The notes beneath the pieces were generated by a model that was not told the origin of the DNA, searched no databases, and was given only the letters and a program-made list of their open reading frames with translations. A stretch of 64,000 nt of DNA from contig NZ_FMZU01000011.1 of the NCBI RefSeq assembly GCF_900101545.1, forward strand, positions 62,001-126,000, in the 5' to 3' direction. Below, in pieces: positions 3,480 to 25,604 of the stretch. Each line of letters begins with the position of its first letter. Position 1 is the stretch's first letter. The stretch is from Variovorax sp. CF079. Its GTDB lineage: Bacteria; Pseudomonadota; Gammaproteobacteria; Burkholderiales; Burkholderiaceae_C. The position numbers and the translations under genes are program-made.

Positions 3480-3486
3480 TTTTTGA

Positions 3487-5310: not shown

Positions 5311-5401
5311 GAACCCGTTATTGCACAAGGCCGCGCGGGACGCATCAGTGGCTGCCCGGTGGCGCGTGTCACGGGTGGTTTCATTCAGGCCCAGTGTCTG
5401 C

Positions 5402-8512: not shown

Positions 8513-8522
8513 GGTCGTCTGT

Positions 8523-9275
8523 TCATTGCATGTGCTGACCGCCATTGATGGCGATGTTGGCACCGGTGACGAATGCCGCTTCTTCCGAGGCGAGGTAGAT
8601 GATCAGGCCCGCCACTTCTTCGGGCTTGCCGAGGCGTCCCACGGGGATGTGCGGCAGGATCTTGCTGTCGAGCACTTCCTTCGGAATGGCCGTGACCATC
8701 TTGGTGCCGATGTAGCCCGGCGAGATGGTGTTCACGGTGACGCCCTTCTTCGCCACCTCGAGCGCCAGCGCCTTGGTGAATCCATGCACGCCGGCCTTGG
8801 CGGCCGAGTAGTTGGTCTGTCCGAACGCGCCCTTCGAGCCATTCACCGAGGACACGTTGATGATGCGGCCCCAGCCGCGGTCCACCATGCCGTCGGCCAC
8901 CTGCTTGCTCATGTTGAACAGGCTGTCGAGGTTGGTGCGCAGTACCGCGTCCCAGTTGATGCGGTCCATCTTCTTGAAGGTCATGTCGCGCGTGATGCCG
9001 GCGTTGTTGACCAGCACGTCGACCGGGCCCAGCCGCGCCTGCACCTCCGACACGGCGCGCGCGCACGAGTCGAAGTCCGCCACGTCGCAGGGCACGGCCA
9101 GAATCTCATAGCCGCGCTGCGCCATCTGCGCCACCCACTCGGCGTGCGACTTGTTGCCCGGCGAATAGGTCACCGCGAGCTTGTAGCCTGCATCGACCAT
9201 CTTGGTGGAGATCGTCTCGCCCAGGCCGCCCATGCCGCCGGTGACCAGGACCACTTGTTGCTGCTTCTCGCTCAT
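8523..9275 (-). CDS. phaB: Acetoacetyl-CoA reductase
   Basis: A 250-residue short-chain dehydrogenase that reduces acetoacetyl-CoA to (R)-3-hydroxybutyryl-CoA with NADPH, the second step of PHB synthesis. It shows VTGGMGGLGETI (cofactor loop), LVNNAGITRD, the catalytic NVSSVNGSKGAFGQTNYSAAKAG block (Ser, Tyr, Lys) split over two strands, and the PhaB-type ending TGANIAINGGQHMQ. A clear AAGGAG precedes the ATG. It follows phaA by 40 bp and precedes an unknown helical protein by 10 bp. Confidence 0.94.
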   Translation of the reverse strand: MSEKQQQVVLVTGGMGGLGETISTKMVDAGYKLAVTYSPGNKSHAEWVAQMAQRGYEILAVPCDVADFDSCARAVSEVQARLGPVDVLVNNAGITRDMTFKKMDRINWDAVLRTNLDSLFNMSKQVADGMVDRGWGRIINVSSVNGSKGAFGQTNYSAAKAGVHGFTKALALEVAKKGVTVNTISPGYIGTKMVTAIPKEVLDSKILPHIPVGRLGKPEEVAGLIIYLASEEAAFVTGANIAINGGQHMQ

Positions 9276-9315: not shown

Positions 9316-10500
9316 TCAGGCGCGCTCGACGGCCAGCGCCACGCCCATGCCGCCGCCGATGCACAGCGAGGCCAGGCCCTTGTTGGCGCCGCGGCGGCGC
9401 ATCTCGTGCAGCAGCGTCACCAGCACGCGGCAGCCCGAGGCGCCGATGGGGTGGCCGATGGCGATGGCGCCGCCGTTGACGTTGATGCGGCTGGTGTCCC
9501 AGTCCATCTCGCGGTTGACCGCGCAGGCCTGCGCCGCGAAGGCTTCGTTGATCTCCATCAGGTCGAGGTCCTGCGCCTTCCAGCCGGCCTTCTTCAGCGC
9601 CAGCTGCGAAGCGGGCACCGGGCCCATGCCCATGAGCGACGGGTCCAGCCCTGCGCTCGCGTAGGCGCGGATCACCGCGAGCGGCTGCAGGCCGAGTGCG
9701 GCGGCGCGCGAGGCCGACATCACCAGCACCGCGGCCGCGCCGTCGTTCAGGCCCGAGGCATTGCCGGCCGTCACCGAGCCGGTCTTGTCGAAGGCCGGGC
9801 GCAGGCCGGCGAGCGCATCGGCGTTGGTCTTGCGGTTCACGAACTCGTCGGCCGCAAAGACGACGGGGTCGCCCTTCTTCTGCGCAATGCTGAAGGGCAG
9901 GATCTCGTCGTCGAAGCGCCCCGCGTCCTGCGCGGCCGCGGCCTTCTGCTGCGAGGCCAGCGCCAGCGCGTCCTGCATCTCGCGCGTGATGCCGTACTTC
10001 TTCGCCACGTTCTCGGCCGTGGTGCCCATGTGGTACTGGTTGTAGACGTCCCACAGGCCGTCCACGATCATGGTGTCGACCAGCTTCCAGTCGCCCATGC
10101 GCTGGCCGTTGCGCGAATTGGGCAGCACGTGCGGCGCAGCGCTCATGTTCTCCTGGCCGCCGGCCACCACGATCTCGGCGTCGCCGCACCTCACCGCCTG
10201 CGCCGCCAGCATCACGGCCTTCAGGCCCGAGCCGCAGACCTTGTTGATGGTGAGGCCCGGCACGCCGATCGGCAGCCCCGCCTTGATGACCGTCTGCCGC
10301 GCCGGGTTCTGGCCCGCACCGGCCGCGAGCACCTGGCCCATGATCACCTCGGACACAGCATCGCCCGGCACGCCGGTCTTGGCGAGCAGGCCCTTCACCA
10401 CGTGCGCGCCAAGCTCGGGCGCGGCCGTACCGGCGAGCGAGCCGCCGAACTTGCCGACCGCCGTGCGTTGCGCGGCCACGATCACGATATCGTCTGACAT
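9316..10500 (-). CDS. phaA: Acetyl-CoA acetyltransferase (beta-ketothiolase)
   Basis: A 394-residue biosynthetic thiolase condensing two acetyl-CoA to acetoacetyl-CoA, the first step of PHB synthesis. The acyl-accepting cysteine lies in [18 protein letters not shown] near residue 90. The [25 protein letters not shown] and [16 protein letters not shown] blocks carry the remaining catalytic His and Cys. AAGGAG precedes the ATG. It sits between phaC and phaB in the order phaC-phaA-phaB, the classic Ralstonia-type PHB operon order. Confidence 0.94.
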
Positions 10501-10548: not shown

Positions 10549-12018
10549 TCAGGCCGCCTTGGCTTTGACATAGCGCCCGGGAGCGGGCTCGATCACGGGA
10601 AAATCCGCGCTGCCCAGCGCGCGGCGGGCGGCGACCTTCGCGCCGGCATGCACGGCGAGCCAGTCGCTCCACCCGGGCCACCAGCTGCCGTCAATGCTTT
10701 GCGCGCCGTCGAGCCAGGCGCCGGCGTCGGACGCGAGATCGCCGACCCAGTGGTTGCGCTTCTTCTTCGCGGGCGGGTTGATCACGCCCGCGATGTGGCC
10801 GCTGGCGCCGAGCACGAAGCGCGTGTCGCCGCCGAGCAGTTGCGTGCCGGCATAGGCGGTCTTCCACGGCACGATGTGGTCGTCGCGCGAGGCGTAGACG
10901 AAGGCCGGCGCATCGACGCGCGACAGGTCCACCGGCACGCCGCACTGCACCGTGCCGCCGGGGACGCGCAGCCTGTTCTCCAGGTAGGTGTTGCGCAGGT
11001 ACCAGCAGTACATCGGCCCCGGCAGGTTGGTGTCGTCGCCGTTCCAGTACAGCAAGTCGAAAGCCGGCGGCGCCTTGCCTTTGAGGTAGCCGTTGACCAC
11101 GTAGGGCCAGATCAGGTCGTTGGCGCGCAGCGCGGCGAACACGGTCGCAAGCTCACGGCCCTTGAGCAGGCCGCCGCGGCCGATGGTGGCTTCGCGCGCG
11201 GCCACCATGGCTTCATCCACCATCAGGCCCAGTTCTCCGGTGTCCGAGAAATCGAGCATCGCGGTCAGCAGCGTGACGCTGGCGGCCGGCGTTTCACCGC
11301 GCGCGGCGGCTACGGCGAGCGCGCTGCCCAGCAGCGTGCCGCCGATGCAGAAGCCCAGCGTGTTGACCTTGTCGGCACGGGCGATGCTCCGCGCGACATC
11401 GAGCGCCCGCAGCACGCCTTGCTCGACGTAGTCGTCCCAGCCCAGATGGCCCTGCTCGGCCGAGACATTGCGCCACGACACCAGGAAGACGGTGTGGCCC
11501 TGTTCGACCGCATAGGCAACCAGCGAGTTACCCGGCTGCAGGTCGAGGATGTAGAACTTGTTGATGCAAGGCGGCACGATGACCAGCGGGCGCTTGTGGA
11601 CCTTCGCCGTGGACGGCGTGTACTGCACGAGCTGCATCAACTCGTTCTCGAACACCACGCTGCCGGGGCTGGTCGCGACGTTGCGGCCAACCTCGAAGGC
11701 CTGGTCGTCCGACATCGAGATGCGGCCCTTCGCCACGTCCGCCAGGAAGAGGCGCGCACCTTCGAGCAGGCTCGCGCCGCCGGAGTCGAGAGCGGCTTGC
11801 ATCGCCTCGGGGTTGGTGGCGAGGCTGTTGGCCGGGTTCATGGCATCGACGACCTGCCGCAGCGCGAAGTCCATCTGTGCCTTGCCGCGCGCATCGAACG
11901 GCGCCGCCTCCAGCGCTTTGCGCATCAGCGCGCCGAACTGCGTGTGCCCCTGCGAAAGGCCCTGCTGCCAGGCTTGCAACCACGAGGTCGCATCGAGATC
12001 GGGTGAGGGTTGGGTCAT
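10549..12018 (-). CDS. phaC: Class I polyhydroxyalkanoate synthase, short N-terminus
   Basis: A 489-residue PHA synthase polymerising (R)-3-hydroxybutyryl-CoA. The catalytic triad is visible: C224 in the lipase-like box GFCIGG, D380 in SRDDHIVPW and H408 in GASGHIAGV. The signatures VPPCINKFYILDLQPGNSLV and PGRYVKAKA are class I. The family is usually about 560-590 residues; compared with the well-studied Ralstonia enzyme (C319, D480, H508) the N-terminal domain is about 95-100 residues shorter. The start cannot move upstream because the ndh stop is only 12 bp away. No good Shine-Dalgarno is seen, so coupling to ndh is likely. Confidence 0.9.
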   Translation of the reverse strand: MTQPSPDLDATSWLQAWQQGLSQGHTQFGALMRKALEAAPFDARGKAQMDFALRQVVDAMNPANSLATNPEAMQAALDSGGASLLEGARLFLADVAKGRISMSDDQAFEVGRNVATSPGSVVFENELMQLVQYTPSTAKVHKRPLVIVPPCINKFYILDLQPGNSLVAYAVEQGHTVFLVSWRNVSAEQGHLGWDDYVEQGVLRALDVARSIARADKVNTLGFCIGGTLLGSALAVAAARGETPAASVTLLTAMLDFSDTGELGLMVDEAMVAAREATIGRGGLLKGRELATVFAALRANDLIWPYVVNGYLKGKAPPAFDLLYWNGDDTNLPGPMYCWYLRNTYLENRLRVPGGTVQCGVPVDLSRVDAPAFVYASRDDHIVPWKTAYAGTQLLGGDTRFVLGASGHIAGVINPPAKKKRNHWVGDLASDAGAWLDGAQSIDGSWWPGWSDWLAVHAGAKVAARRALGSADFPVIEPAPGRYVKAKAA

Positions 12019-12030
12019 GGCCGTGGCTGC

Positions 12031-13365
12031 TCAGTGGAGCTTGACGTGGGGTTCGGTGCGCCGCGTGATGAGGCGGGCGAGCGTGTCGAGCGAGACCTTG
12101 ACGACGCCGTGCAGCGCCAGCTCGTGCATCTTGTAGAGCGACATGTACATGAGCCGCGCGAACAGCCCTTCGATCATCAGACTGCCGCCGATCAGGCCGC
12201 CCATCATGTTGCCCACGGTGCTGAACTCGCCGAGCGACACCAGCGAGCCGAAGTCGCGGTAGCGGTAGGGCTTGAGCGCCTTGCCGCCCAAGCGCCGGCG
12301 GATCTGCGCCGCGACGTGCGAGGCCTGCTGGTGCGCCGCCTGCGCGCGCGGCGGCACCAGGCCGCCCTTGCCGCCGTTGGCCTCGGGCCAGTCGCAGGCC
12401 GCGCAGTCGCCGATGGCGAAGATGTCGGCATCGCGCGTGGTCTGCAGGGTCGGCAGCACCGCAAGCTGGTTGCTGCGGTTGGTCTCCAGCCCCGCGATGT
12501 CCTTCATGAAATCGGCCGCCTTCACGCCCGCGGCCCACACCACCAGCTCGGCCGGCAGCGTGCGCCCGTCGGCCAGGCGCACGCTCTCTGGCAGCACCTC
12601 GGCCACCTTGGCGGAGGTGTGCACGTCCACGCCCAGCTCGCGCAGGAGCGCCTCGGTGGCGGCCGACATGCGCGGCGGCAGCGCGGGCAGCACGCGGTCG
12701 GCGGCCTCGATCACGCTGACCTGGATGTCCTTCTCGGCGTCCACGCGGTCCAGCCCGTAGGCGATGACCTCGCGCGTGGTGCGATGCAGCTCGGCCGCCA
12801 GCTCCACGCCGGTCGCGCCCGCGCCGATGATCGCCACGTGCAGCTGCTCGGGCCGCAGCGGCGTTGTCTGCGCATGCGCGCGGATGCAGGCGTTGACCAT
12901 GCGCTGGTGAAAGCGCTGCGCATCCGCCTTCGATTCGAGCCGCAGCGCATGCTCGCGCACGCCGGGCGTGCCGAAGTCGTTGCTGAGGCTGCCGATGGCG
13001 ACCACCAGTGTGTCGTAGCCGAAGGCGCGCGCCGGCGTGACCAGCCGGCCCTCGTCGTCCAGGTAGGGTGCGACATGCACCTCGCGCCGCTCGCGGTCGA
13101 TGCCGGTGAGCTCGCCGAGCCGGAAGCGGAAGCGGTGCCAGTGCGCCTGCGCGAGGTAGTCCACTTCGTGTGCGCTCAGGTCCATGCTGCCCGCGGCGAT
13201 CTCGTGAAGCTTGGGCTTCCACACGTGGGTGCGGTGCTTGTCGACCAGCGTGATGTCGGCCATGCCGCGCTTGCCCAGCGTATCGCCGAGACGCGTGGCC
13301 AGCTCCAGCCCACCGGCGCCGCCGCCCACGATGACGACTCGGTGCCTCTGCACGGGGTTGTTCAT
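12031..13365 (-). CDS. ndh: Type II NADH:quinone dehydrogenase
   Basis: A 444-residue flavoprotein that oxidises NADH and reduces quinone without proton pumping. The N-terminal FAD site is RVVIVGGGAGGLELATRLG, with a second Rossmann motif IIGAGATGVELAAELH for NADH. FAIGDCAACDWPE holds the FAD-contacting Asp. The C-terminal part has an amphipathic region (SLYKMHELALHGVV) that may bind the membrane. Its location between dctA and phaC, upstream of cydAB, points to a non-coupled NADH-to-oxygen route serving this cluster. Confidence 0.9.
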   Translation of the reverse strand: MNNPVQRHRVVIVGGGAGGLELATRLGDTLGKRGMADITLVDKHRTHVWKPKLHEIAAGSMDLSAHEVDYLAQAHWHRFRFRLGELTGIDRERREVHVAPYLDDEGRLVTPARAFGYDTLVVAIGSLSNDFGTPGVREHALRLESKADAQRFHQRMVNACIRAHAQTTPLRPEQLHVAIIGAGATGVELAAELHRTTREVIAYGLDRVDAEKDIQVSVIEAADRVLPALPPRMSAATEALLRELGVDVHTSAKVAEVLPESVRLADGRTLPAELVVWAAGVKAADFMKDIAGLETNRSNQLAVLPTLQTTRDADIFAIGDCAACDWPEANGGKGGLVPPRAQAAHQQASHVAAQIRRRLGGKALKPYRYRDFGSLVSLGEFSTVGNMMGGLIGGSLMIEGLFARLMYMSLYKMHELALHGVVKVSLDTLARLITRRTEPHVKLH

Positions 13366-13396: not shown

Positions 13397-14740
13397 TCAG
13401 CGCGGCTGCGCGACGGGCATGTGGGTCTCGACCTGATCCAGCACGGCCTCGGGCGCGTCGGCCTCGGCCGGCGTCTCGTTGTCCAGGATGCGCTTCATGC
13501 GGGCGGCGTCCAGGTCGTTGGTCCACTTGGCGACCACCACCGTGGCGACGCCGTTGCCGATCAGGTTGGTCAGCGCGCGGGCTTCCGACATGAAACGGTC
13601 GATGCCCAGGATCAGCGCCAGGCCCGCCACCGGCACGTGCCCCACTGCCGACAGCGTGGCGGCCAGCACGATGAAGCCGCTGCCGGTCACGCCGGCCGCG
13701 CCCTTGGACGTCAGCAGCAGCACCAGCAGCAGCGTGATCTGCTGCGTCACGGTCATGTCGGTGTTGGTGGCCTGCGCGATGAACACGGCCGCCATCGTCA
13801 GGTAGATCGAGGTGCCGTCGAGGTTGAACGAGTAGCCGGTCGGGATGACCAGGCCGACCACCGACTTCTTGGCGCCCAGGTTCTCGAGCTTGGCCATCAT
13901 GCGCGGCAGCACCGATTCGCTGGAGGAGGTGCCCAGCACGATCAGCAGCTCTTCCTTGATGTACTTGATGAACTTCCAGATGCTGAAGCCGTGCGCCCGC
14001 GCGATGCCGCCGAGAACGACGAAGATGAACAGCAGGCAAGTGGCGTAGAAGGTCGCCATCAGCTGGCCGAGCTGCAGCAGCGAGCCGACGCCGTACTTGC
14101 CGATCGTGAATGCCATCGCCCCGAAAGCGCCGATTGGCGCCACCTTCATGATGTAGCCGACGATGACGAACAGGACGTGGGAGAACTTCTCGATGAAGTC
14201 GAACACCAGCGTACCGCGACCGCCGAACTTGTGCAGCGCGAAGCCGAACATCACGGCGAACAGCAGCACCTGGAGGATCTCGCCCTTGGCGAACGCGTCG
14301 ACCACCGTGCTCGGAATCACATGCAGCAGGAAGTCGACCGTGCCCTGCATCTGTCCAGGCGCTGTGTAGGCGGCGATCGCCTTGGTGTCGAGTTGGCTCA
14401 CGTCGATGTTCATGCCGGCGCCGGGCCGCACGATGTTGATGATGACCAGCCCCACCACCAGCGCAATGGTGCTCACGATCTCGAAGTACAGCAGCGCCAG
14501 GCCGCCGGTCTTGCCGACCTTCTTCATGTCCTCCATGCCGGCGATGCCGACCACCACCGTGCAGAAGATGATCGGCGCGATGATCATCTTGATGAGCTTG
14601 ATGAAACCGTCGCCCAGCGGCTTCATTGCCGCGCCGGTCTGCGGATAGAAATGGCCCAGCAGCACGCCGATGACGATCGCAGTGATGACCTGGAAGTACA
14701 GGGACTTGTAGAAGGGCTTGGATACGGGTTGGTGGTCCAC
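13397..14740 (-). CDS. dctA: C4-dicarboxylate:proton/sodium symporter DctA
   Basis: A 447-residue inner-membrane symporter of the DAACS (glutamate transporter-like) family that imports succinate, fumarate and malate. It shows multiple membrane helices, the HP1 serine-rich tip ([14 protein letters not shown]), the [20 protein letters not shown] cation site and the HP2 block [19 protein letters not shown]. The start is GTG, with TAGGAGAC upstream, only 18 bp after the lipA stop, so it has no separate intergenic promoter. The matching sensor and regulator genes dctB and dctD are about 8 kb further downstream on the same strand. Confidence 0.93.
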
Positions 14741-14758: not shown

Positions 14759-15703
14759 TCAGACGCCGGCGGCATGCGCCTGCCGGTCGGCGTGGTAGCT
14801 CGACCGCACGAGCGGTCCGCAGGCGGCATGGGCAAAGCCCATGGCGTGCGCCTGCTGCGCAAGGGTTTCGAATTGCGCCGGAGCGACGTAGCGCGCAACC
14901 GGCAGGTTGCCGGGGCGCGGCTGCAGGTACTGGCCGACGGTGAGCATGTCGACGCCATGGCGGCGCAGGTCGCGCATCACCTCCAGCACTTCGTCGTCGG
15001 TCTCGCCCAGGCCCAGCATCAGGCCCGACTTGGTGGGCACGCCGGGGCAGCGCGCGCGGAACGACTGGAGCAGCTGAAGCGAGTGCATGTAGTCGGCGCC
15101 GGGTCGCGCCTGGCGGTACAGGCGCGGCACGGTCTCGAGGTTGTGGTTCATCACGTCCGGCGGGTCGGCGGCGAGGATGTCGAGCGCAACCTCGGCGCGG
15201 CCGCGGAAGTCGGGCGTGAGCACCTCGATCTGCGTGCCGGGCGACTGCCTGCGCACCGCGCGGATGCAGGCGGCGAAATGCGCCGCACCGCCGTCGCGCA
15301 GGTCGTCGCGGTCGACGCTGGTGATCACCACGTACTTCAGGCGCAGCCGAGCGACCGTGTCGGCCAGGTGCTGCGCCTCCTGCGGATCGGGCGGCTGCGG
15401 ACGGCCGTGGGCCACGTCGCAGAAAGGGCAGCGACGCGTGCAGAGGTCGCCCAGCACCATGAAGGTGGCGGTGCCCTTGCCGAAGCATTCGCCGATGTTC
15501 GGGCACGAGGCCTCTTCGCACACGGTGTGCAGGCTGGCCTCGCGCAGCGTGCGCTTCACCTCGCGGAAGCTCTCGCTCTGCGAGACGCGCACGCGGATCC
15601 AGTCGGGCTTGGGCAGGGCCGGGCCTGCCTCGGCCACGCGGATCGGTATCCGGCGCGTCTTGGCGGCGCCGCGCTGCGGGCCATGGAGCACGATGTCGTT
15701 CAT
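14759..15703 (-). CDS. lipA: Lipoyl synthase
   Basis: A 314-residue radical-SAM enzyme that inserts two sulfurs into octanoyl groups on lipoyl domains. The auxiliary cluster cysteines are in [12 protein letters not shown], the radical-SAM cluster is CTRRCPFCD, and the C-terminal RSSYHAD holds the conserved Ser. The ATG at 15703 follows the maeB stop by 10 bp; the longer frame from 15742 overlaps maeB. lipB is not adjacent. The position in a cluster with three lipoyl-domain genes (aceE partners aceF and lpdA) suggests it serves the PDH complex, and it may be a second genomic copy. Confidence 0.92.
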
Positions 15704-15713
15704 GGCCGAGCCG

Positions 15714-17996
15714 TTAGGCCGCGCCGCGGTGCGAGTTGGCATCGACCACCGCCAGCGCCGTCATGTTGACGATGCGGCGCACGGTGGACGACGGCGTGAG
15801 GATGTGCACCGAGCGCGCGGCGCCCAGCAGGATGCCTCCCACCGTGATGCCGCTGCCGGCCGCCATGCGCAGCAGGTTGTAGGAGATGTTGGCCGCGTCG
15901 ACGTTGGGCATGATGAGCACGTTGGCTTCGGTGTCCAGCGCCGAGTCCGGGAACTCGTGGTCGAGGATCGACTTGGACAACGCCGCGTCGCCGCGCATCT
16001 CGCCTTCCACCGCGAGCTGCGGATCGCTCGCCTTGATGAGCGCGAGCGCCTCACGCATCTTCACGGCCGAGGCCGCATCCGAGCCGCCGAAGTTCGAGTG
16101 CGACAGCAGCGCCACGCTCGGCGTCACGCCGAAGCGGCGCACCTCTTCGGCCGCGAGCAGCGTGATCTCGGCGATCTGCGCCGCATCGGGGTCGCGGTTG
16201 ACGTGCGTGTCGCAGATGAAGAGCTGGCGTCCCGGCAGCATCAGCATCTGCATGGCGGCCATGGTCTTGGTGCCTGGGCGCAGGCCGATCACGTCGCGCA
16301 CATGGCGCAGGTGATCGCCGTAGCCGCCCAGCGTGCCGCACAGCATGGCGTCGGCCCGGCCCTGGCGCACCAGCATCGCCGCGAGCAGCGTGCCGCGGCT
16401 GCGCATCTCGGTCTGCGCCACCAGGCGCGAGACGCCGTCGCGACGCTTGAGCTGGTAGTAGGCCTCGGCGGCGTCGCCGTGCACGGCGGGGTCGAGCAGG
16501 TCGACGGCCTCGCAGTCGGTGCCCAGCGCAAGGCGCAGGCCGTACTGCGCGATGCGCTCCGCGATCACCTCGGGGCGGCCCAGCAGCAGCGGCCGCGCCA
16601 GGCCTTCGTCCACCACCACTTGCGCGGCGCGCAGCACGCGCTCGTCCTCGCCCTCGGCGTAGACCACGCGCTTGGGCGACTGCTTGGCGGCTGCGAACAG
16701 CGGCTGCATGCTGCTGCCCGACTGGTAGACGAACTGCGACAGGCGCTGGCGGTAGGCCTTCATGTCGGCGATGGGCCGCGTCGCCACGCCGCTGTCGACC
16801 GCGGCCTGCGCCACCGCGGGCGCGACCGCCTCGATCAGGCGCGGGTCGAAGGGCTTGGGGATCAGGTAGTCGCGGCCGAAGCGCAGGCCGAGCGCGCCGT
16901 AGGCCTGCGCCACCACCTCGGGAATCTCGGCATGCGCGAGCTCCGCGATGGCGCGCACGGCGGCAAGCTTCATCTCTTCGTTGATGGTGGTCGCGCCCAC
17001 GTCGAGCGCGCCGCGGAAGATGAACGGGAAACACAGCACGTTGTTGACCTGGTTCGGATAGTCCGACCGGCCGGTACCGAGGATGGCGTCGGGGCGCACG
17101 GCCAGCGCGTCTTCCGGCAGGATCTCCGGCGTCGGGTTGGCCATCGCGAGGATGATCGGATCGCGCGCCATCTCCTTCACCATCTCCGGCTTGAGCACGC
17201 CGCCGGCCGACAGGCCGAGGAAGATGTCGGCGCCGCCGATCACGTCGGCCAGCTTGCGCGCCGCGGTGTCCTGCGCGTAGCGGGCCTTGTTGGGGTCCAT
17301 CTGCTCCTTGCGGCCGGTGTAGACCACGCCCGCGCTGTCCGACACGTAGATGTTGTGCAGCGGCAGGCCGAGGCTCACGATCAGGTCGAGGCAGGCCAGT
17401 GCCGCCGCGCCGGCGCCCGAGGCCACCAGCTTCACCTCGCGGATGTCCTTGTTCACATGGCGCAGCGCATTGAGGATGGCGGCGGCCGCGACGATGGCGG
17501 TGCCGTGCTGGTCGTCGTGGAAAACCGGGATCTTCATGCGCTCGCGCAGCTTCTTCTCGATGTAGAAGCACTCGGGCGCCTTGATGTCTTCGAGGTTGAT
17601 GCCGCCGAAGGTAGGCTCCATGCGCGCGATGGTGTCGATGAGCGCGTCGGGGTCGGTCTCGTCGAGCTCGATGTCGAAGACGTCGATGCCGGCGAACTTC
17701 TTGAAGAGGCAGGCCTTGCCTTCCATCACCGGCTTGCCGGCCAGCGCGCCGATGTTGCCGAGTCCCAGCACCGCCGTGCCGTTGGTGATGACCGCCACCA
17801 GGTTCGCGCGCGAGGTGAGATTCATGGCCTCGGCCGGATCGCGCGCGATTTCCATGCAGGCGTCGGCCACGCCGGGCGAATAGGCGAGCGCGAGATCGCG
17901 CTGCGTGGCCATCGGCTTGGTCGGGTTCACCGAGATCTTGCCGGGCGTCGGAAAGCGGTGGTAGTCGAGGGCAGCTTCGCGCAGGTTGTCGGACAT
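15714..17996 (-). CDS. maeB: NADP-dependent malic enzyme with phosphotransacetylase-like domain
   Basis: A 760-residue fusion. Residues 1 to about 425 are malic enzyme: [43 protein letters not shown] and [12 protein letters not shown], with the nucleotide site [12 protein letters not shown]. About 430-760 is a phosphotransacetylase-like domain ([19 protein letters not shown] at its start) that in MaeB proteins is regulatory, binding acetyl-CoA, rather than catalytic. It converts malate to pyruvate and CO2 with NADPH, feeding the PDH genes upstream and NADPH to PhaB. GGAGAC precedes the ATG. Confidence 0.93.
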
Positions 17997-18038: not shown

Positions 18039-18833
18039 TCAGCGCGGGGCGAGCGCGCAGGCGTCGCCCAGCCAGCCGTGCAAGCCGCACAACAGCGCTT
18101 CCGGTTGATCCGCGTGCACCCAGTGGCCGGCCTCGGTGATGTGCTCCAGCTGCGCGCAGGGGAACATCGCCTGGATGCGTGGAAGCGAATCGGGTCGCAC
18201 GTAGTCGGACTCCGCCGCCGCGAAGAACAGGGCCGGCCCGTCGTAGCGTTCGCGCAGCAACTGTTCCGGGAACCCGCAAAGGTCCGGCATGCACAAGGCC
18301 GTCGCCATCAGATTGAGCCGCCAGTCGAAACGCTCGGTCTGGCGCCGCAGGTTCTGCATCATGAAGTCCACAGGTGCGGTGCCGCCCAGACCGTCCAGCA
18401 GCGCCTGGCTGATGCGCCGGCGGCTTGCCGCGGCAGCGGTGTCCAGGCCTCGCATGGCGGACACATGCGAGGCGAACTGGTCGGCATAGCACTCGGGCGC
18501 GATATCGATCACCGCGACCCCGCCAATGGTCTTTGGGTGGCCGAGCGCCAGGGCCATGGCGGTCTTGCCGCCCATGCTGTGGCCGACGACGAACGGCCGC
18601 TCCAGCTGCTCTCTTTCGATGAGAGCCAGCACGTCGAGCGCCATGTCGGTGTACGACATGGTCTCGGCCCACGGCGAAGCACCGTGGTTGCGGGCATCCG
18701 GCAGGTAGACGCGGTAGCCGGCGGCCAGCGACTGGGCGATCTGCGTCCAGTTGCGGCCGGCGCCGAACAGGCCGTGCAGGATCACCATGGGAGGCCCCGA
18801 TCCGAGTGCCTCGAAGGCAAGTTGAACTGGCAT
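18039..18833 (-). CDS. Alpha/beta hydrolase, YbfF-like esterase
   Basis: A 264-residue soluble hydrolase. The oxyanion region is ILHGLFGAGRNW, the nucleophile elbow VGHSMGGKTAMALA, and the catalytic histidine AGHWVHADQPE near the C-terminus. This set matches the YbfF group, which cleaves short acyl esters including acyl-CoA or malonyl-CoA in vitro. Its natural substrate is unknown. It begins 11 bp after lpdA and is followed by maeB, so it travels with the central-carbon array. Confidence 0.85.
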   Translation of the reverse strand: MPVQLAFEALGSGPPMVILHGLFGAGRNWTQIAQSLAAGYRVYLPDARNHGASPWAETMSYTDMALDVLALIEREQLERPFVVGHSMGGKTAMALALGHPKTIGGVAVIDIAPECYADQFASHVSAMRGLDTAAAASRRRISQALLDGLGGTAPVDFMMQNLRRQTERFDWRLNLMATALCMPDLCGFPEQLLRERYDGPALFFAAAESDYVRPDSLPRIQAMFPCAQLEHITEAGHWVHADQPEALLCGLHGWLGDACALAPR

Positions 18834-18844
18834 GGCAGCGCGTC

Positions 18845-20611
18845 CTACTTCTTCTTCACCGGCGGCAGATCGGTGCAGACGCCCTCGAACAGCTCAGCCG
18901 CCATGCCGATGGATTCGCCCAGTGTCGGATGCGGATGGATGGTCTTGCCGATGTCGCCGGGCTCGCAGCCCATCTCGATGGCCAGGCACAGCTCGCTGAT
19001 CAGGTCGCCCGCATGCGTGCCGACGATGCCGCCGCCGACGATGCGGTGCGTGGCCTCGTCGAAGATCAGCTTGGTGAAGCCTTCGTCGCGCCCGTTGGCG
19101 ATGGCGCGGCCCGACGCCGCCCAGGGGAACACGGCCTTGGCGACCTTCAGGCCCTCGGCCTTGCACTGCTCCTCGGTCTTGCCGGCCCAGGCCACCTCGG
19201 GGTCGGTGAAGGCCACCGAGGGGATCTGCCGCGCATCGAAGAACGCCGCTTCGCCGTGCGCCGCCTCGGCCGCCACGTGGGCCTCGTGCACGGCCTTGTG
19301 CGCGAGCATGGGCTGGCCGACGATGTCGCCGATGGCGAAGATGTGCGGCACGTTGGTGCGCATCTGTTTGTCGACGTCGATGAAGCCGCGCTCGGTGACG
19401 GCCACGCCGGCCTTGTCGGCGCCGATCTTCTTGCCGTTGGGACTGCGGCCCACGGCCACGAGCACGAGGTCGTAGACCTGGGCCTCCTTCGGCGCCTTCT
19501 CGCCTTCGAAGCTCACCTCGATGCCAGCCTTGGTGGCCTTGGCGCCGACGGTCTTCGTCTTGAGCATGACGTGGTCGAAGCGCGGCGCGTTGAACTTTTC
19601 CCACACCTTGACGAGGTCGCGGTCGGCGCCCTGCATCAGGCCGTCGAGCATTTCGACCACGTCGACGCGCGTGCCCAGCGTCGAGTACACCGTGGCCATC
19701 TCGAGCCCGATGATGCCGCCGCCGACCACCAGCATGCGCTTCGGAATGCTCTTGAGCAGCAGCGCGCCGGTGGAGTCGACGACGCGTTCGTCCTCGGGCA
19801 TGAAAGGCAGCTCCACGGCCTGCGAGCCCGCGGCGATGATGGCCTTGGCGAACTTCACCACCTTCTTCGCGCCGCCCTCGCCCAACACTTCGACATGGTA
19901 CGGATCGAGGAAGCTGCCGACACCGGTGACGACCTCGACCTTGCGTGCCTTCGCCATGCCGGCCAGGCCGCCAGTGAGCTTCTTGACGACGCCGTCCTTG
20001 AAGCCGCGCAGCGCGTCGATGTCGACCTCGGGCGCGGTGTACTTGATGCCGTGGTGGCCCAGCAGCTTGACCTCGTCCATCACGCTTGCGGTATGCAGCA
20101 GCGCCTTCGACGGGATGCAGCCGACATTGAGGCACACGCCGCCGAGCGTGGCGTAGCGCTCCACGAGCACCGTCTTCATGCCGAGGTCGGCGCTGCGGAA
20201 GGCGGCCGAGTAGCCGCCGGGGCCGGCGCCGAGCACGAGCACCTCGCACTCGATGTCGGCCTTGCCGGCGTAGCTGCCGGCCGTGGGCGCCGGCACGGAC
20301 GCGGGTGCGGCTGCGGGTTCGCTCCCTCTCCCGCTTGCGGGAGAGGGTTGAGGTGAGGGTGAGGCCGCCGCCGCCGTCTCGATCACCAGGATCACCGAGC
20401 CTTCGCTCACCTTGTCGCCGAGCGCGACCTTCAGCTCCCTGACGGTGCCCGCATGGCTCGACGGAATCTCCATCGAGGCCTTGTCGGACTCCACCATGAT
20501 CAGGCCGGTATCGACCGCGATGACCTCACCGGGCTTGACCAGCAGCTCGATGACCGCGACATCCTTGAATTCGCCGATGTCGGGGACCTTGACTTCCACC
20601 ATGTGTGCCAT
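18845..20611 (-). CDS. lpdA: Dihydrolipoyl dehydrogenase with N-terminal lipoyl domain
   Basis: A 588-residue E3 subunit of the PDH complex. Residues 1-80 form a lipoyl domain with lipoyl-lysine K44 (ESDKASMEIP). An Ala/Pro/Ser linker (81-117) follows, then the flavoprotein: FAD motif VLGAGPGGYSAAF, redox disulfide C160/C165 in GGVCLNVGCIPSKA, and the C-terminal HPHPTLGES with the active-site histidine. It re-oxidises dihydrolipoamide with NAD. The linker includes residues SPQPSPASGRGSEP, encoded by an inserted palindromic repeat. AAGGAAGC precedes the ATG, 13 bp after aceF. Confidence 0.94.
   Translation of the reverse strand: MAHMVEVKVPDIGEFKDVAVIELLVKPGEVIAVDTGLIMVESDKASMEIPSSHAGTVRELKVALGDKVSEGSVILVIETAAAASPSPQPSPASGRGSEPAAAPASVPAPTAGSYAGKADIECEVLVLGAGPGGYSAAFRSADLGMKTVLVERYATLGGVCLNVGCIPSKALLHTASVMDEVKLLGHHGIKYTAPEVDIDALRGFKDGVVKKLTGGLAGMAKARKVEVVTGVGSFLDPYHVEVLGEGGAKKVVKFAKAIIAAGSQAVELPFMPEDERVVDSTGALLLKSIPKRMLVVGGGIIGLEMATVYSTLGTRVDVVEMLDGLMQGADRDLVKVWEKFNAPRFDHVMLKTKTVGAKATKAGIEVSFEGEKAPKEAQVYDLVLVAVGRSPNGKKIGADKAGVAVTERGFIDVDKQMRTNVPHIFAIGDIVGQPMLAHKAVHEAHVAAEAAHGEAAFFDARQIPSVAFTDPEVAWAGKTEEQCKAEGLKVAKAVFPWAASGRAIANGRDEGFTKLIFDEATHRIVGGGIVGTHAGDLISELCLAIEMGCEPGDIGKTIHPHPTLGESIGMAAELFEGVCTDLPPVKKK
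20324..20347. repeat. Palindromic repeat element inside the lpdA linker
   Basis: A perfect 11-bp inverted repeat (CCCTCTCCCGC, loop TT, GCGGGAGAGGG) followed by a TTGAGGTGAGGGTGAG tail. The same kind of sequence is common between genes in many proteobacteria. Here it is in frame inside the flexible linker between the lipoyl and flavin domains and encodes a PSPASGRGS-like stretch. Confidence 0.75.
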
Positions 20612-20624
20612 TTGGGAGCTTCCT

Positions 20625-22220
20625 TCAGAACAGCACGCGCCGCAGGTCGGCGAGCACGTTGGCGAAATAGACGTTGAAGCGCGCGGCGGCGGCGCCGTCG
20701 ATCACGCGGTGGTCCCACGACAGCGAAAGCGGCAGCGTGAGGCGCGAGGTGTAGGTCTTGCCGTCGGAAGAGTGCTGCTTCCAGTAGCTCTTGCACACGC
20801 CCATGATGGCGACCTCGGGCGCGTTGATGATCGGCGTGAAGTAGATGCCGCCGATGCCGCCGAGCGAGCTGATGGTGAAGGTGCCGCCCGACATCTGATC
20901 GGGCTTGAGCTTGCCGTCGCGCGCGAGCTTGGCGAGCTCGCCCATCTCTTTCGCGATCTCGGGCACGGTCTTCCTGTCGGCATCGCGGATCACCGGCACC
21001 ATGAGGCCGTTGGGCGTGTCGGCCGCGAAGCCGATGTGCCAGTAGTTCTTGAGCACCAGCGCATCGCCGTCGAGGCTGGCGTTGAACTCCGGGAACTTCT
21101 TCAGCGCCGCCACGGCCGCTTTCATCATGAAGGGCAGCATGCTGATCTTCACGCCCGACTTTTCCAGCTCCTTGTTCATCTGCACGCGGAAGGGTTCGAG
21201 CTCGGTGATGTCGGCCTCGTCGTGCGTCGTCACGTGAGGAATGACGACCCAGTTGCGGTGCAGGTTCGCTGCGCTGATCTTCTTGATGCGTGACAGTTCC
21301 TTGCGCTCGGTCGGTCCGAACTTGGCGAAGTCGACCTTGGGCCAGGGCAGCAGGTCGATGCCGCCGACGCCACCGCCCGCAGGGGCTGCAGCGGCCTTGC
21401 CAGCGGCCGGCGCGGCAGTTGCACCGCCACCCTTCGCGAAGGCCTCCACGTCGGCGCGCACGATGCGGCCGTGCTCGCCGGTGCCCTTGAGCTTTCCGAG
21501 ATCGACACCGAGTTCGCGCGCGAGCTTGCGCACGGCGGGGCCGGCGTAGGCGAGTGCGAAGGCAGCTTCGTCGATGGCGCCGCCGGCGGCTGCAGCGGCC
21601 TGCGCCGGTGCGGGCGCGGCAGATGCTGCCGGCGCCGGTGCAGCGGCGCTCGCCGCAGGCGCATCGCCGGTCGCGAGCGACAGGATCACCGAGCCCTCGC
21701 TGACCTTGTCGCCGATCTTGATGCCGATGGCCGTCACCACGCCCGAGAGCGGCGCGGGCACGTCCATCGTGGCCTTGTCGGATTCGAGCGAGACGAGCGG
21801 GTCCTCGGCCTTCACCGTGTCGCCGACCTTCACGAAGATCTCGATGACGGGCACGTCCTTGAAGTCGCCGATGTCCGGCACGCGCACCTCGGCCACGCCG
21901 GCCGGCGCGCTGGTGGCCGACGGCGCCGCACTGACGCTGGGCTTGGCGGCTTCGGCGGGAGCGGGCGCAGCCGCGCCACCCTCGGCCTTGAACGTCATGA
22001 TGACGCTGCCCTCGCTGACCTTATCGCCCAGCTTCACGGCAATGGACTCGACCACGCCGCCGCGCGGGGCGGGCACATCCATCGTGGCCTTGTCGGATTC
22101 GAGCGAAACCAGCGGGTCCTCGGCCTTCACCGTGTCGCCGGGCTTCACGAAGATCTCGATGACGGGCACGTCGCTGAAGTCACCGATGTCGGGAACCTTG
22201 ATGTCGATTGCGTTGCTCAT
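20625..22220 (-). CDS. aceF: Pyruvate dehydrogenase E2, dihydrolipoyllysine acetyltransferase
   Basis: A 531-residue E2 core protein. Two lipoyl domains lie at 1-78 and about 111-190, with lipoyl-lysines K44 and K149, both in ESDKATMDVP. Ala/Pro-rich linkers separate them. The peripheral-subunit-binding domain follows at about 225-262 (AGPAVRKLARELGVDL, TGEHGRIVRADV). The catalytic domain ends with SWDHRVIDGAAAARF, carrying the active-site His and Asp. It transfers acetyl groups to CoA. AAGGCAG precedes the ATG; it starts 13 bp after aceE. Confidence 0.95.
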   Translation of the reverse strand: MSNAIDIKVPDIGDFSDVPVIEIFVKPGDTVKAEDPLVSLESDKATMDVPAPRGGVVESIAVKLGDKVSEGSVIMTFKAEGGAAAPAPAEAAKPSVSAAPSATSAPAGVAEVRVPDIGDFKDVPVIEIFVKVGDTVKAEDPLVSLESDKATMDVPAPLSGVVTAIGIKIGDKVSEGSVILSLATGDAPAASAAAPAPAASAAPAPAQAAAAAGGAIDEAAFALAYAGPAVRKLARELGVDLGKLKGTGEHGRIVRADVEAFAKGGGATAAPAAGKAAAAPAGGGVGGIDLLPWPKVDFAKFGPTERKELSRIKKISAANLHRNWVVIPHVTTHDEADITELEPFRVQMNKELEKSGVKISMLPFMMKAAVAALKKFPEFNASLDGDALVLKNYWHIGFAADTPNGLMVPVIRDADRKTVPEIAKEMGELAKLARDGKLKPDQMSGGTFTISSLGGIGGIYFTPIINAPEVAIMGVCKSYWKQHSSDGKTYTSRLTLPLSLSWDHRVIDGAAAARFNVYFANVLADLRRVLF

Positions 22221-22233: not shown

Positions 22234-24906
22234 TCAGACGGTCCAGGGGGCGGCGCGCTCGGCTTGGAGCCCGTATTTCTCGATGGCCTCGGCCACCACG
22301 GCGTGCTTGATCACGCCGTCGTCGGCCAGTGCCTTGAGCGCGGCCACCACCACGTGCCAGCGGTCGACCTCGAAGAAGCGGCGCAGCTTGCGGCGGTAGT
22401 CGCTGCGGCCGAAGCCGTCGGTGCCCAGCACGGTGTAGCGCCGGCCCGCGGCCTGCACGTACTCGCGCACCTGGTCGGCGTAGTTGCGCATGTAGTCGGT
22501 GGCCGCGATGACGGGGCCGTCGTGGCCGTCGAGGCATTGCTCGACATGGCTCCGGCGCGCGGGCTGCGTGGGGTGCAGCCGGCTCCAGCGTTCGGCGGCC
22601 ATGCCGTCGCGGCGCAGCTCGTTGTAGCTGGTGGCGCTCCACACGTCGGCCGCGATGCCGAAGTCGCTCTTGAGCAGCTCGGCCGCGAACATCACCTCGC
22701 GCAGGATGGTGCCGCTGCCCATCAGCTGCACGCGGTGGCCTTTCTTCGGCGTCTTGCCGCCCTCGCTCAACTGGTAGAGGCCCTTGAGAATGCCCGCCTC
22801 GCTGCCCTCGGGCATGCCGGGGTGCGGGTAGTTCTCGTTCATGAGGGTGATGTAGTAGTACACGTCCTCCTGCTCGGCGTACATCCGCCGCATGCCGTCG
22901 CGCACGATGGCCACCACCTCGTAGGCAAAGGTCGGGTCGTAGGAGACGCAGTTCGGGATCGTGCCGGCCAGGATGTGGCTGTGGCCGTCCTCGTGCTGCA
23001 GGCCTTCTCCGTTGAGCGTGGTGCGCCCCGCGGTGCCGCCGAGCAGGAAGCCGCGCGCACGCATGTCGCCGGCCAGCCAGGCCAGGTCGCCCACGCGCTG
23101 CAGGCCGAACATCGAGTAGTAGATGTAGAACGGAATCATCGGCACGTTGTTCGTGCTGTACGAGGTGGCCGCGACGATCCAGCTGGACATCGCGCCGCCC
23201 TCGTTGATGCCTTCCTGCAGCACCTGCCCGTCCTTCGACTCGCGGTAGTACATGAGCTGGTCGGCGTCCTGCGGCTTGTAGAGCTGGCCGAGCGAGGACC
23301 AGATGCCGAGCTGGCGGAACATGCCCTCCATGCCGAAGGTGCGCGACTCGTCGGGCACGATGGGCACCACGTGCTTGCCGATCGCCTTGTCGCGCACCAG
23401 TGTGCCGAGCATCTGCACGAAGGCCATGGTGGTGGAGATCTCGCGCTCGCCGGTGTCCTTGAGCAGGCGCTCGAAGGTGGCCAGCGGCGGAATCTCGAGC
23501 GCGGTCGACTTGCGGCGGCGCTGCGGCAGGTAGCCGCCGAGCGCGGCGCGGCGCTCCCGCAGGTACTTCATCTCGGGGCTGTCCTCGGCGAGCCGGATGA
23601 AGGGCACGTTGGGCAGCTCTTCATCGGACACCGGGATCTGGAAGCGGTCGCGGAAGCCGCGCAGTGCGTCCTGCGTCATCTTCTTGGCCTGGTGCGCGAT
23701 CATCTGGCCCTCGCCCGATTCGCCCATGCCGTAGCCCTTCACCGTCTTGGGCAGGATCAGCGTGGGCTGGCCCTTGTGCTTGACGGCGGCGGCATAGGCG
23801 GCGAACACCTTCTCCGGGTCGTGGCCGCCGCGGGTCAGCGCCCAGATCTGCTCGTCGCTCATGTCGGCGACCAGGGCCTTCGTCTCGTCGTACTTGCCGA
23901 AGAAATGCTCGCGCACATAGGCGCCGCTCTTGCTCTTGAAGTCCTGGTACTCGCCGTCGACGCACTCTTCCATGCGCTGCAGCAGCTTGCCGCTCTTGTC
24001 CTTGGCGAGCAGCGCGTCCCAGCCGCTGCCCCAGAGCACCTTGATGACGTTCCAGCCGGCGCCGCGGAACACGCTCTCGAGCTCCTGCACGATCTTGCCG
24101 TTGCCGCGCACCGGCCCGTCGAGGCGCTGCAGGTTGCAGTTGATGACGAACACGAGGTTGTCCAGGCTCTCGCGGCCCGCGAGCGAGATGGCGCCGAGCG
24201 ATTCGGGCTCGTCCATCTCGCCGTCGCCCATGAAGGCCCAGACCTTGCGCGGCGCGGTGTCGGCGAGGCCGCGGCCGTGCAGGTACTTGAGGAAGCGCGC
24301 CTGGTAGATCGCCATCAGCGGGCCGAGGCCCATCGAGACGGTGGGGAACTGCCAGAAGTCGGGCATGAGCCAGGGGTGCGGGTACGACGGGATGCCGCCA
24401 CCATCGGCCTCCTGGCGGTAGTTGAGCAGCTGCTGCTCGCTCAGGCGGCCTTCGAGGAAAGCGCGCGCGTAGATGCCGGGCGAGCTGTGGCCCTGGATGA
24501 AGAGCAGGTCGCCGCCATGCGTGTCGGTGGCGGCATGCCAGAAATGGCCGAAGCCAATGTCGTAGAGCGTGGCCGCCGACTGGAAGCTCGCGATGTGGCC
24601 GCCGAGTTCGGACGAGTCCTTGTTGGCGCGCAGGATGATCGCCATCGCGTTCCAGCGGATGATGGAGCGCAGGCGGTGTTCGATCTCGCGGTTGCCGGGA
24701 GACTTTTCCTCCTTCTCGGGCGGGATCGTGTTCTTGTAGGCCGTGTTCAGCGAACGGGGCACGTACACGCCGTCGCGGCGGCCCTCGTCGACGAGGCGAT
24801 TCAACAGAAAATTCGCGCGCTCGCTGCCGCGGTGTTGTTGAACCGCGCCAAGCGCGTCGATCCACTCGCCAGTTTCCGTGGGGTCAAGGTCACCCATGGT
24901 GCTCAT
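22234..24906 (-). CDS. aceE: Pyruvate dehydrogenase E1 component (homodimeric)
   Basis: An 890-residue thiamine-diphosphate enzyme, normal for the homodimeric E1 (about 885-900). The ThDP motif is GDGEMDEPESLGAISLAGRE at about 230, and other conserved blocks include GHIASFQSAATLYDIGFGHF and GQPTLILPKTVKGYGMG. It decarboxylates pyruvate and acetylates E2. The ATG at 24906 is preceded by AGGAGA; the open frame continues to 25008, but that extension contains the sigma-54 promoter and is not protein-like. It is the first gene of a sixteen-gene minus-strand array. Confidence 0.95.
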   Translation of the reverse strand: MSTMGDLDPTETGEWIDALGAVQQHRGSERANFLLNRLVDEGRRDGVYVPRSLNTAYKNTIPPEKEEKSPGNREIEHRLRSIIRWNAMAIILRANKDSSELGGHIASFQSAATLYDIGFGHFWHAATDTHGGDLLFIQGHSSPGIYARAFLEGRLSEQQLLNYRQEADGGGIPSYPHPWLMPDFWQFPTVSMGLGPLMAIYQARFLKYLHGRGLADTAPRKVWAFMGDGEMDEPESLGAISLAGRESLDNLVFVINCNLQRLDGPVRGNGKIVQELESVFRGAGWNVIKVLWGSGWDALLAKDKSGKLLQRMEECVDGEYQDFKSKSGAYVREHFFGKYDETKALVADMSDEQIWALTRGGHDPEKVFAAYAAAVKHKGQPTLILPKTVKGYGMGESGEGQMIAHQAKKMTQDALRGFRDRFQIPVSDEELPNVPFIRLAEDSPEMKYLRERRAALGGYLPQRRRKSTALEIPPLATFERLLKDTGEREISTTMAFVQMLGTLVRDKAIGKHVVPIVPDESRTFGMEGMFRQLGIWSSLGQLYKPQDADQLMYYRESKDGQVLQEGINEGGAMSSWIVAATSYSTNNVPMIPFYIYYSMFGLQRVGDLAWLAGDMRARGFLLGGTAGRTTLNGEGLQHEDGHSHILAGTIPNCVSYDPTFAYEVVAIVRDGMRRMYAEQEDVYYYITLMNENYPHPGMPEGSEAGILKGLYQLSEGGKTPKKGHRVQLMGSGTILREVMFAAELLKSDFGIAADVWSATSYNELRRDGMAAERWSRLHPTQPARRSHVEQCLDGHDGPVIAATDYMRNYADQVREYVQAAGRRYTVLGTDGFGRSDYRRKLRRFFEVDRWHVVVAALKALADDGVIKHAVVAEAIEKYGLQAERAAPWTV

Positions 24907-24969
24907 CGGTTTGTCTCCTGTGTCATGGCCAGGATCCGCATCGGGCGACGCGGTCGGCCTTGGTACAGA

Positions 24970-24984
24970 GCAATCGATGTGCCA
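24970..24984 (-). promoter_or_regulatory. Sigma-54 promoter upstream of aceE
   Basis: Reading the minus strand from 24984, the bases are TGGCAC, then five bases (ATCGA), then TTGC followed by T. This matches the sigma-54 consensus TGGCAC-N5-TTGC at every core position with correct spacing. The transcription start would fall near 24958, giving a leader of about 50 bases before the aceE ATG. The rest of the 24907-25207 gap holds the palindrome at 25093-25117 and nothing else I recognise. Strength and use are predicted, not known. Confidence 0.75.
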
Positions 24985-25092
24985 CGCGGCGCGCGGCGCG
25001 CAAAGCACGCTAAGTCGTTGATTTCATGAGGGATGAGCTGAGGATGGGGCGAGTGCTCCGCCGATGATCCGGATGCGGAGCGAAGAGGCCGT

Positions 25093-25117
25093 CCGAATCA
25101 CCGGACCGGTGATCCGG
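25093..25117. promoter_or_regulatory. 25-bp palindrome, candidate activator site for the aceE promoter
   Basis: Two 12-base arms around a single central base at 25105 match at 11 of 12 positions; the inner 17 bp (ATCACCGGACCGGTGAT) are perfect. The centre is about 120 bp upstream of the -24 element of the sigma-54 promoter. That is the usual distance for an enhancer bound by an NtrC-class activator. DctD is the obvious candidate, but a repressor such as a PdhR-type GntR protein cannot be excluded. Confidence 0.65.
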
Positions 25118-25207
25118 GCAAACCCTGGGGTCACTCAGGCGTGCGAGACGGAGACCGCCGTGCTCCATCACGCCGCGGTCAGCATGCGGATCAGGGCGAC
25201 TTGGCGG

Positions 25208-25432
25208 CTAGCGCCGCGGAAAGCGCTTGATCATGCTGTGTCCCAGCGAGGTGATGGCGATGACAGTGGCCGGCGGCTGGTTGTAGCCGTCCAAGGTCCG
25301 CACGGGTTTGGGGATGGACGCCTTGACGTGACCCGCGAGGCTCAGCACGCGCACGGCATCGACGTCCGAACCGTGGTTGACGGCGACCGGCAGATCGTGT
25401 TCTGCCAAACGATGAAGCAGGATGATAGGCAC
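25208..25432 (-). CDS. Small hypothetical protein
   Basis: A 74-residue reading frame starting with GTG (VPIILLHRLAEHDLPVAV) and ending ITSLGHSMIKRFPRR. No signal peptide, membrane helix or known motif is visible. The codons use G or C in third position at a rate like the neighbours. It is the only plausible coding frame in this gap. It lies upstream of aceE on the same strand, beyond the sigma-54 promoter region. The upstream Shine-Dalgarno is weak, and the open frame extends to 25606 with low-complexity sequence that looks non-coding. Confidence 0.45.
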   Translation of the reverse strand: MPIILLHRLAEHDLPVAVNHGSDVDAVRVLSLAGHVKASIPKPVRTLDGYNQPPATVIAITSLGHSMIKRFPRR

Positions 25433-25604
25433 CCAGCGAGTATGCCGGCTCGCGGCGTCAGGTCTGCGCCAGACTTGTAGGCGAACAGCAGGCAACGCGC
25501 GTCGATGCCTGACTGCCGGCCCGCCGCGAAGGCCGGTAGGCGCCGGCAAGCGCTGACGACGCGGAGCGTATAGGCTTGGCCCATTTTTTCTGCGGGCCGA
25601 TCCC

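Follow-up and report, generated by a model that had tools for sequence, protein, structure and literature searches.

The aceE2 to dctD gene array

The window, that is, the whole 64,000-nucleotide (64-kb) stretch of Variovorax sp. CF079 DNA that was analysed, harbours an array of 16 genes running from 24906 to 2115, all on the minus strand and with a largest gap of 48 bp. It starts with aceE2 (22234..24906), a second copy of the homodimeric pyruvate dehydrogenase (PDH) E1 (TIGR00759, 1483 bits; paralogue census), followed by aceF (dihydrolipoyl acetyltransferase; 20625..22220) and lpdA (dihydrolipoyl dehydrogenase with a lipoyl domain; 18845..20611), both assigned by profile match. Downstream are genes for an alpha/beta hydrolase (18039..18833; every match was under its cut-off), an NADP malic enzyme with a phosphotransacetylase-like domain (15714..17996; NF009501, above cut-off), lipoyl synthase (lipA; 14759..15742; profile match), the C4-dicarboxylate transporter (dctA; 13397..14740; NF002461, above cut-off) and a putative NDH-2-like FAD/NAD oxidoreductase (12031..13365). 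Three PHB genes come next, each with a match above cut-off: phaC (class I PHA synthase; 10549..12018; TIGR01838), a phaA-like acetyl-CoA acetyltransferase gene (9316..10500; TIGR01930) and phaB (acetoacetyl-CoA reductase; 8523..9275; TIGR01829). The array is completed by a gene for a DUF6781 protein (7859..8563; true start probably below 8563), subunits I (6394..7812) and II (5402..6397) of a cytochrome bd-type oxidase (profile matches), the sensor kinase gene dctB (3487..5409), whose product has a periplasmic domain like that of S. meliloti DctB, and dctD (2115..3578; true start probably below 3578), which encodes an NtrC-class activator. A DUF6781 relative recurs between dctA and dctB in dct arrays with or without PHB genes (window, L251-L254 and L220).

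Another aceE, 64% identical to that of the array, is found elsewhere in the genome (G000:C16:163986-166664) and is presumably the housekeeping copy; by this comparison the window aceE is a second, accessory E1. An aceE match at E ≤ 1e-300 was present in 98 of 101 congeners, and most among the matches listed were of the 62-65% type. Window-type aceE2 (at least 90% identity) was found in 19 of the 101 (the G042 copy being split over two frames), and aceE2 at 86-94% identity in 12 further genomes from a 399-genome family sample. The alphaproteobacterial record of Bradyrhizobium sp. Ec3.3 (L001) contains a homodimeric aceE that is 80% identical, which suggests horizontal transfer of the PDH cassette.

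A sigma-54 element conserved upstream of aceE2

The original prediction, made from the letters of the window, had placed a sigma-54 promoter motif, TGGCAC-N5-TTGC, 64-78 bp upstream of the aceE ATG (at 24906), and its position was confirmed. This -24/-12 element (TGGCACATCGATTGC; 24970..24984, minus strand) is an exact match to TGGCAY-N5-TTGC with the invariant GG and GC, and predicts a transcription start at ~24958. It is the sole exact match in the 64-kb window and, on the array strand between 2000 and 25200, the only TGGCAY-N5-TTGC site with at most one mismatch. Genome-wide, there were 45 exact matches, whereas the reversed sequence gave 9. One-mismatch matches in the window were not enriched (3 observed versus 6.3 expected from shuffles), thus the bare motif is little proof; one-mismatch counts in both the window and the whole genome were close to background and were kept out of the evidence. 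It is conservation across aceE2 upstream regions, rather than motif counts, that decides, and on this comparative basis the motif is judged real.

For the comparison, 32 aceE2 upstream regions, selected by protein similarity only, were aligned. After removal of L145, which duplicates L002 (Pelomonas sp. Root1237, whose upstream region is also identical to that of G130), 31 distinct regions remained. TGGCAY-N5-TTGC was exact in 27 of the 31, 65-84 bp ahead of the alignment column of the window start codon. With this retention at near-fixed geometry among diverged upstream regions, and with no reversed match of the composite pattern described below, a chance match, to which the unremarkable one-mismatch counts would point, is hardly credible. 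Of 40 regions upstream of aceE genes of the other type (62-67% identity; 23 from the genus and 17 from the family), none had the consensus. Among distant aceE relatives, L001 and L003 had no sigma-54 site with three or fewer mismatches in 400 bp, L057 had three-mismatch sites only, and L004 had a one-mismatch site without an IHF box.

Upstream dyads and an IHF-like box at near-fixed spacing

Between the UAS and the promoter lies an IHF-like box (AATCAACGACTTA; 25011..25023, minus strand), so named for its resemblance to WATCAANNNNTTR, which we take to be the IHF consensus. By this sequence criterion the region belongs with IHF-dependent promoters, and IHF would be expected to bind at 25011-25023. 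Further upstream, a 25-bp palindrome with one mismatch had been proposed as the enhancer, ~120 bp from the sigma-54 element. That palindrome (25093..25117) is present, with 11 of 12 pairs and its centre 121 bp upstream of the -24 T, yet its register was wrong: what relatives keep is an overlapping, shorter dyad, GTCCGG-TGAT-TCGGAC (dyad 1; 25091..25106), centred ~114 bp upstream of the -24 T. Among 13 divergent representatives, 54% of the pairs of dyad 1 were kept, a moderate level that is the best among the centres scanned, whereas the palindrome as drawn decays to 40%. Dyad 1 is the proposed strong DctD site, and dyad 2 (TCCGGATCATCGG; 25061..25073), located ~31 bp downstream of it in conserved columns, is the proposed weaker tandem site; neither dyad, nor the palindrome, is assigned to a strand. 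The IHF-like box, dyad 2 and a GGGTTT box (CAGGGTTTG; 25119..25127, minus strand) are extra elements that the original prediction had missed. The GGGTTT box lies upstream of the dyads and is kept in many aceE2 promoters, and several dctA promoters have a GGGTTAACCC-like form of it.

Among the 27 sigma-54-type aceE2 promoters, the WATCAANNNNTTR box was exact in 24 and carried one mismatch in three; the distance from its start to the -24 T is 38-40 bp in 26 of them and 29 bp in L153. A dyad with at least 5/6 pairs was centred 112-114 bp upstream of the -24 T in 22 of the 27, with the other five (L136, L137, L138, L143 and L153) below this threshold. Column conservation was determined pairwise on the 13 representatives (≤70% identity), and mean pairwise identity was 1.0 for the -24/-12 element (for which the loci were chosen), 0.70 for the IHF box, 0.56 for the GGGTTT box, 0.48 for each dyad and 0.33 for the spacers. 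The GTCCG-N6-CGGAC dyad by itself was not enriched genome-wide (15 places versus 26 for the reversed pattern); dyads were therefore counted only within the composite. In a profile of 57 promoters, 30 are dctA promoters that the composite pattern had itself retrieved, which makes the profile circular in its dyad, IHF and -24/-12 columns; less bias attaches to the geometry of the 31 upstream regions, the conservation among the 13 representatives and the dctA-promoter survey below.

Promoter type and array content

In 22 of the 27 loci having the sigma-54 element, dctB and dctD lie within the fetched array. The aceE contigs of G351 and G079 end early, and dctD and the missing array genes are on another contig. 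In G325 the promoter is present and the array stops after the NDH-2 gene though the contig continues, with phaCAB, oxidase and dctBD genes opening another contig; in the fragmented assemblies G028 and G190, whose aceE contigs also end early, the promoter is present and no dctD orthologue was found. The array break of G325 before dctBD and the two genomes with no dctD found count against DctD as the activator, as does the moderate conservation of the dyad and its falling below threshold in five of 27 promoters.

The element was absent in four of the 31 loci (G105, G198, G282 and G492), all with arrays that lack the malic enzyme gene and dctA. No dctBD was seen in these four arrays (the G492 contig ends before that position), and in G105, G198 and G492 there was no DctD match at E ≤ 1e-90 anywhere in the genome. 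TGGT-N3-ACCA palindromes precede aceE in G105, G198 and G282, and only shorter GGTC-N2-ACC forms (GGTCTGACC/GGTCTTACC) in G492. The regulator genes of the G198 and G282 arrays (L187 and L189, the two tested) encode FCD-GntR proteins whose best match, below cut-off, was PdhR. In G198, TRAP transporter genes precede aceE.

Such palindromes and regulators in array relatives are what would be expected if a PdhR-like repressor controlled an unseen sigma-70 promoter that accounts for most aceE2 expression, with the sigma-54 element being secondary. For the window this is very unlikely, however, as a simple scan of 24850-25700 gave no sigma-70-like site, no TGGT-N3-ACCA-like palindrome was found within 320 bp of aceE in the window or in three other sigma-54 loci tested, and conservation is lower in the spacers than in the sigma-54, IHF and dyad blocks.

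The same promoter heads dctA arrays, some with aceE scars

The composite of dyad, IHF box and sigma-54 element was found in 46 of the 101 congeners, with one match in each and none for the reversed control. Sixteen matches are at aceE2 and 30 head dctA arrays, in which the first gene is dctA (27 arrays) or a hydrolase gene with or without a malic enzyme gene (G040, G095 and G018). dctBD follows in 29 of the 30; the G076 contig ends inside dctA. DctD orthologues (E ≤ 1e-175) were present in 50 of the 101 congeners, 45 of which have the composite; of the remaining five, G068 and G070 combine a degenerate dyad with exact sigma-54 and IHF elements before dctA, and G079, G080 and G100 are aceE2 carriers having the sigma-54 element. 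G028 has the composite, with no dctD found. A Fisher test of promoter against dctD (45/5/1/50) gave p 8e-22, a value inflated by linkage and shared descent, which partly account for the co-occurrence, and not relied on. When a laxer dyad was combined with the same IHF and sigma-54 parts, 13 of the 399 family genomes were matched, once each (reversed, 0): six at aceE2, six at dctA and one (G468) before an asparaginase-like gene, named from its translation. Known cases, G472 and G351 among them, escape this laxer pattern.

Twelve of the 30 dctA-array congeners still have a stretch of aceE coding sequence, 29 nt or longer, between the promoter and dctA, followed in several of the 12 by pieces of lpdA, maeB or lipA. 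Arrays of intermediate length were also found (hydrolase-malic enzyme-dctA-dctBD, dctA-phaA-phaB-dctBD and dctA-dctBD). Judging from the aceE fragments kept, the PDH cassette has been deleted repeatedly in the scar-bearing lineages, with the promoter, dctA and dctBD retained. The shortest dctA arrays could be either deletion products or older than the cassette.

dctA promoters beside DctD homologues

From match lists, 22 loci around DctD homologues were picked, at 17 of which the DNA upstream of a dctA-like gene could be read, and the best candidate per 450-bp region was scored. In 13 of the 17 the transporter is 80-90% identical to the window dctA, and DctD is 62-68% identical. TGGCAY-N5-TTGC was exact in 10 of these 13 promoters, carried two mismatches in two and was absent in one, and 10 of the 13 have a dyad with at least 6/7 pairs at 102-104 or 111-112 bp; the form CGTCCGGAATCCCGGACG occurs in two (L255 and L257). 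The two spacing classes are ~10 bp, or one helical turn, apart (dctA promoters of L251-L258; L153). In dctA promoters of the short class the IHF box, located by eye, is also ~10 bp closer, so that dyad and IHF box shift together. No dctA promoter was obtained for L256 (G411), where the dctA match starts late; the array at this locus is dctA-phaA-phaB-dctBD, with PHB genes inside a dct operon and no PDH genes seen in the stretch.

In G282, one of the four genomes without the element before aceE, an unlinked cluster, dctB-dctD-dctA, encodes a DctD with 68-69% identity to the window protein. Between dctD and dctA of this cluster, TGGTCC-N5-TTGC (two mismatches relative to the consensus) is preceded by an IHF-like box at 38 bp, one dyad at 87 bp and another, AGCCCGGACGGCCGGGCT, with its centre at 111 bp.

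At L259, L261, L264 and L265 the transporter is only 38-39% identical to dctA and the adjoining DctD-like regulator 55-57%; a one-mismatch sigma-54 site is present in all four, and a dyad in two. These loci may be AauR-like acidic amino acid systems.

DctB and DctD as the candidate sensor and activator

The window DctD consists of a receiver, a sigma-54 AAA+ domain and a Fis HTH (Pfam), its receiver matching S. meliloti DctD (1qkk; E 2.8e-34). The periplasmic sensor domain of DctB matches 3by9, 3e4o and 2zbb (E 6e-24 to 1.4e-23), with S. meliloti DctB structures at E 7e-24 and 1.4e-23. The sigma-54 contact loop of DctD reads GAFTSA, not GAFTGA. The latter is usual for the NtrC class and not defining for DctD. 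Among 68 homologues with at least 60% identity, 35 have GAFTSA, 31 have GAFTGA and two were unread, thus GAFTSA is a natural variant.

The DctD site of Rhizobium meliloti is TGTGCGgaaatCCGCACA, and two such sites precede dctA there (PMC11077940, in the part used here). Both the window dyad and CGTCCGGAATCCCGGACG fit this pattern except for one base per core arm (GTCCGG here, GTGCGG in Rhizobium). In the window, then, tandem dyads like known DctD sites (though of moderate conservation in divergent aceE2 loci) are accompanied by linked dctBD genes and by dctA behind the same type of promoter. The dyad is not exclusive to DctD, as similar sites are found at the 38-39% transporters, before the asparaginase-like gene and at targets of AauR, a member of the DctD family whose site is given as TTCGG-N4-CCGAA in the available portion of PMC7962211.

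These similar sites leave some room for a real sigma-54 promoter that answers to another NtrC-class activator, such as NtrC, NorR or an AauR-like acidic amino acid regulator. The family membership and site of AauR, the asparaginase-like gene and the four transporters beside 55-57% DctD-like proteins would all favour this, as would an NtrC-class gene directly upstream of aceE2 in six genomes (G029, G030, G033, G072, G073 and G080). We nevertheless regard another activator as unlikely. The promoter heads dctA arrays in 30 congeners, 29 of them with dctBD; the dyad is the published DctD site but for one base per arm; and a search of the window genome at E ≤ 1e-90 gave no DctD match besides DctD itself, although more distant NtrC-class proteins must exist. 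The upstream NtrC-class gene, seen in only six of the loci compared, was rejected as the cognate activator: that of G080, the one tested, is NorR, and it was not seen at the other loci compared.

The original prediction further held that sigma-54 and DctD drive aceEF-lpdA and perhaps the whole array down to dctBD. Comparison supports this through the fixed geometry of UAS, IHF box and -24/-12 element and the Rhizobium-like dyad, and additionally through the same promoter before dctA arrays with aceE scars and before dctA beside DctD homologues in the family, and through four arrays that lack both dctA and the site. DctD as activator, under the control of DctB, of a sigma-54 promoter that drives a 16-gene C4-dicarboxylate-to-PHB operon is thus very likely on comparative grounds.

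A proposed route from dicarboxylate signal to PHB

From the elements, geometry, conservation, linkage, scars and domain make-up observed above, we infer a scheme that covers DctD binding and activation, inducer, one-operon transcription, flux and metabolic purpose. DctB, going by its homology, would sense periplasmic C4-dicarboxylate and phosphorylate DctD, which would bind the two tandem dyads, lying ~114 and ~83 bp ahead of the -24 element. IHF would bend the DNA between dyads and promoter, allowing for DctD to remodel RNA polymerase-sigma-54 at TGGCAC-N5-TTGC, with a start near 24958. A single 16-gene transcript from aceE2 to dctD would result, making DctBD autoregulated. The operon would take in succinate or malate and convert malate via pyruvate to acetyl-CoA; surplus acetyl-CoA would be stored as PHB and NADH reoxidised. 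In evolutionary terms, the promoter would be that of dctA-dctBD, with a PDH cassette lying between promoter and dctA.

A wider joint reading is favoured with moderate confidence. It would have DctBD command a whole metabolic module and not uptake alone, by one dicarboxylate-triggered transcript that encodes the transporter and malic enzyme, a dedicated PDH together with a lipoyl synthase of its own, the enzymes of PHB synthesis, a bd-type oxidase and an NDH-2-like enzyme; regulation would be modular, dctA arrays having the DctD/sigma-54 promoter and the four without dctA having PdhR-type operator-like palindromes; and the genus would have deleted the PDH cassette many times behind a preserved promoter. 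PDH is usually regarded as a core enzyme under pyruvate control. If the reading is true, a spare PDH that shares a dicarboxylate two-component switch with malic enzyme, lipoyl synthase and PHB genes would constitute a ready-made feed-forward circuit for soil and root bacteria fed malate and succinate, with one signal probably switching on the whole pathway from succinate or malate to storage plastic, and the deletion series among congeners would be a natural record of a catabolic super-operon being dismantled with its promoter kept.

Relation to known systems

In the literature searched, which covers few subscription journals, no title or abstract opening among the papers listed described a DctD-controlled PDH or a dicarboxylate-PDH-PHB operon. 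RpoN-dependent PDH is known from rhizobia, so a sigma-54-dependent PDH here would not be unprecedented: in the part of PMC5979394 used here, Paraburkholderia phymatum Bphy_3757-61 is an RpoN-dependent PDH in nodules with a predicted RpoN box, and the same part cites other work for an RpoN-dependent PDH in nodules of Bradyrhizobium diazoefficiens. The P. phymatum PDH differs in having separate 'transketolase central region' and 'pyruvate dehydrogenase' genes (same part of PMC5979394) in place of the homodimeric aceE found here, and the terms 'dct', 'PHB' and 'polyhydroxy' are absent from the main text of that paper.

The Rhizobium dctA promoter likewise has an NtrC-class DctD, tandem upstream sites and a 7-4-7 inverted-repeat layout (as given in part of PMC11077940), but its target is the transporter gene, whereas here it would be first aceEF-lpdA, along with malic enzyme, lipA, PHB and respiratory genes. 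AauR/AauS of Pseudomonas shares a DctD-family activator and, in the TTCGG-N4-CCGAA of the PMC7962211 excerpt, the spacing of the dyads here; its targets are instead amino acid transport genes. The pdhR-aceEF-lpd system shares the enzyme genes, and array relatives without dctA have operator-like palindromes and, in two, a PdhR-like gene; at the window locus, in contrast, such a palindrome was absent within the 320 bp scanned, and activation is proposed rather than repression.

A predicted hairpin in the aceE2 leader

An Rfam scan of 24850-25700 gave no match. Just after the predicted aceE2 start, a 5′-leader hairpin, CCGCGTC-GCCC-GATGCGG (24936..24953, minus strand), is predicted. The consensus fold of the leader alignment is weak (-0.63 kcal/mol), and it is the per-sequence stems alone that exceed shuffles: the mean best stem over 27 leaders was 6.07 bp, against a mean of 4.72 and a maximum of 5.19 in 100 mononucleotide shuffles. 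The hairpin often takes the form GCRTC-N4-GAYGC, and many leaders keep it with paired changes.
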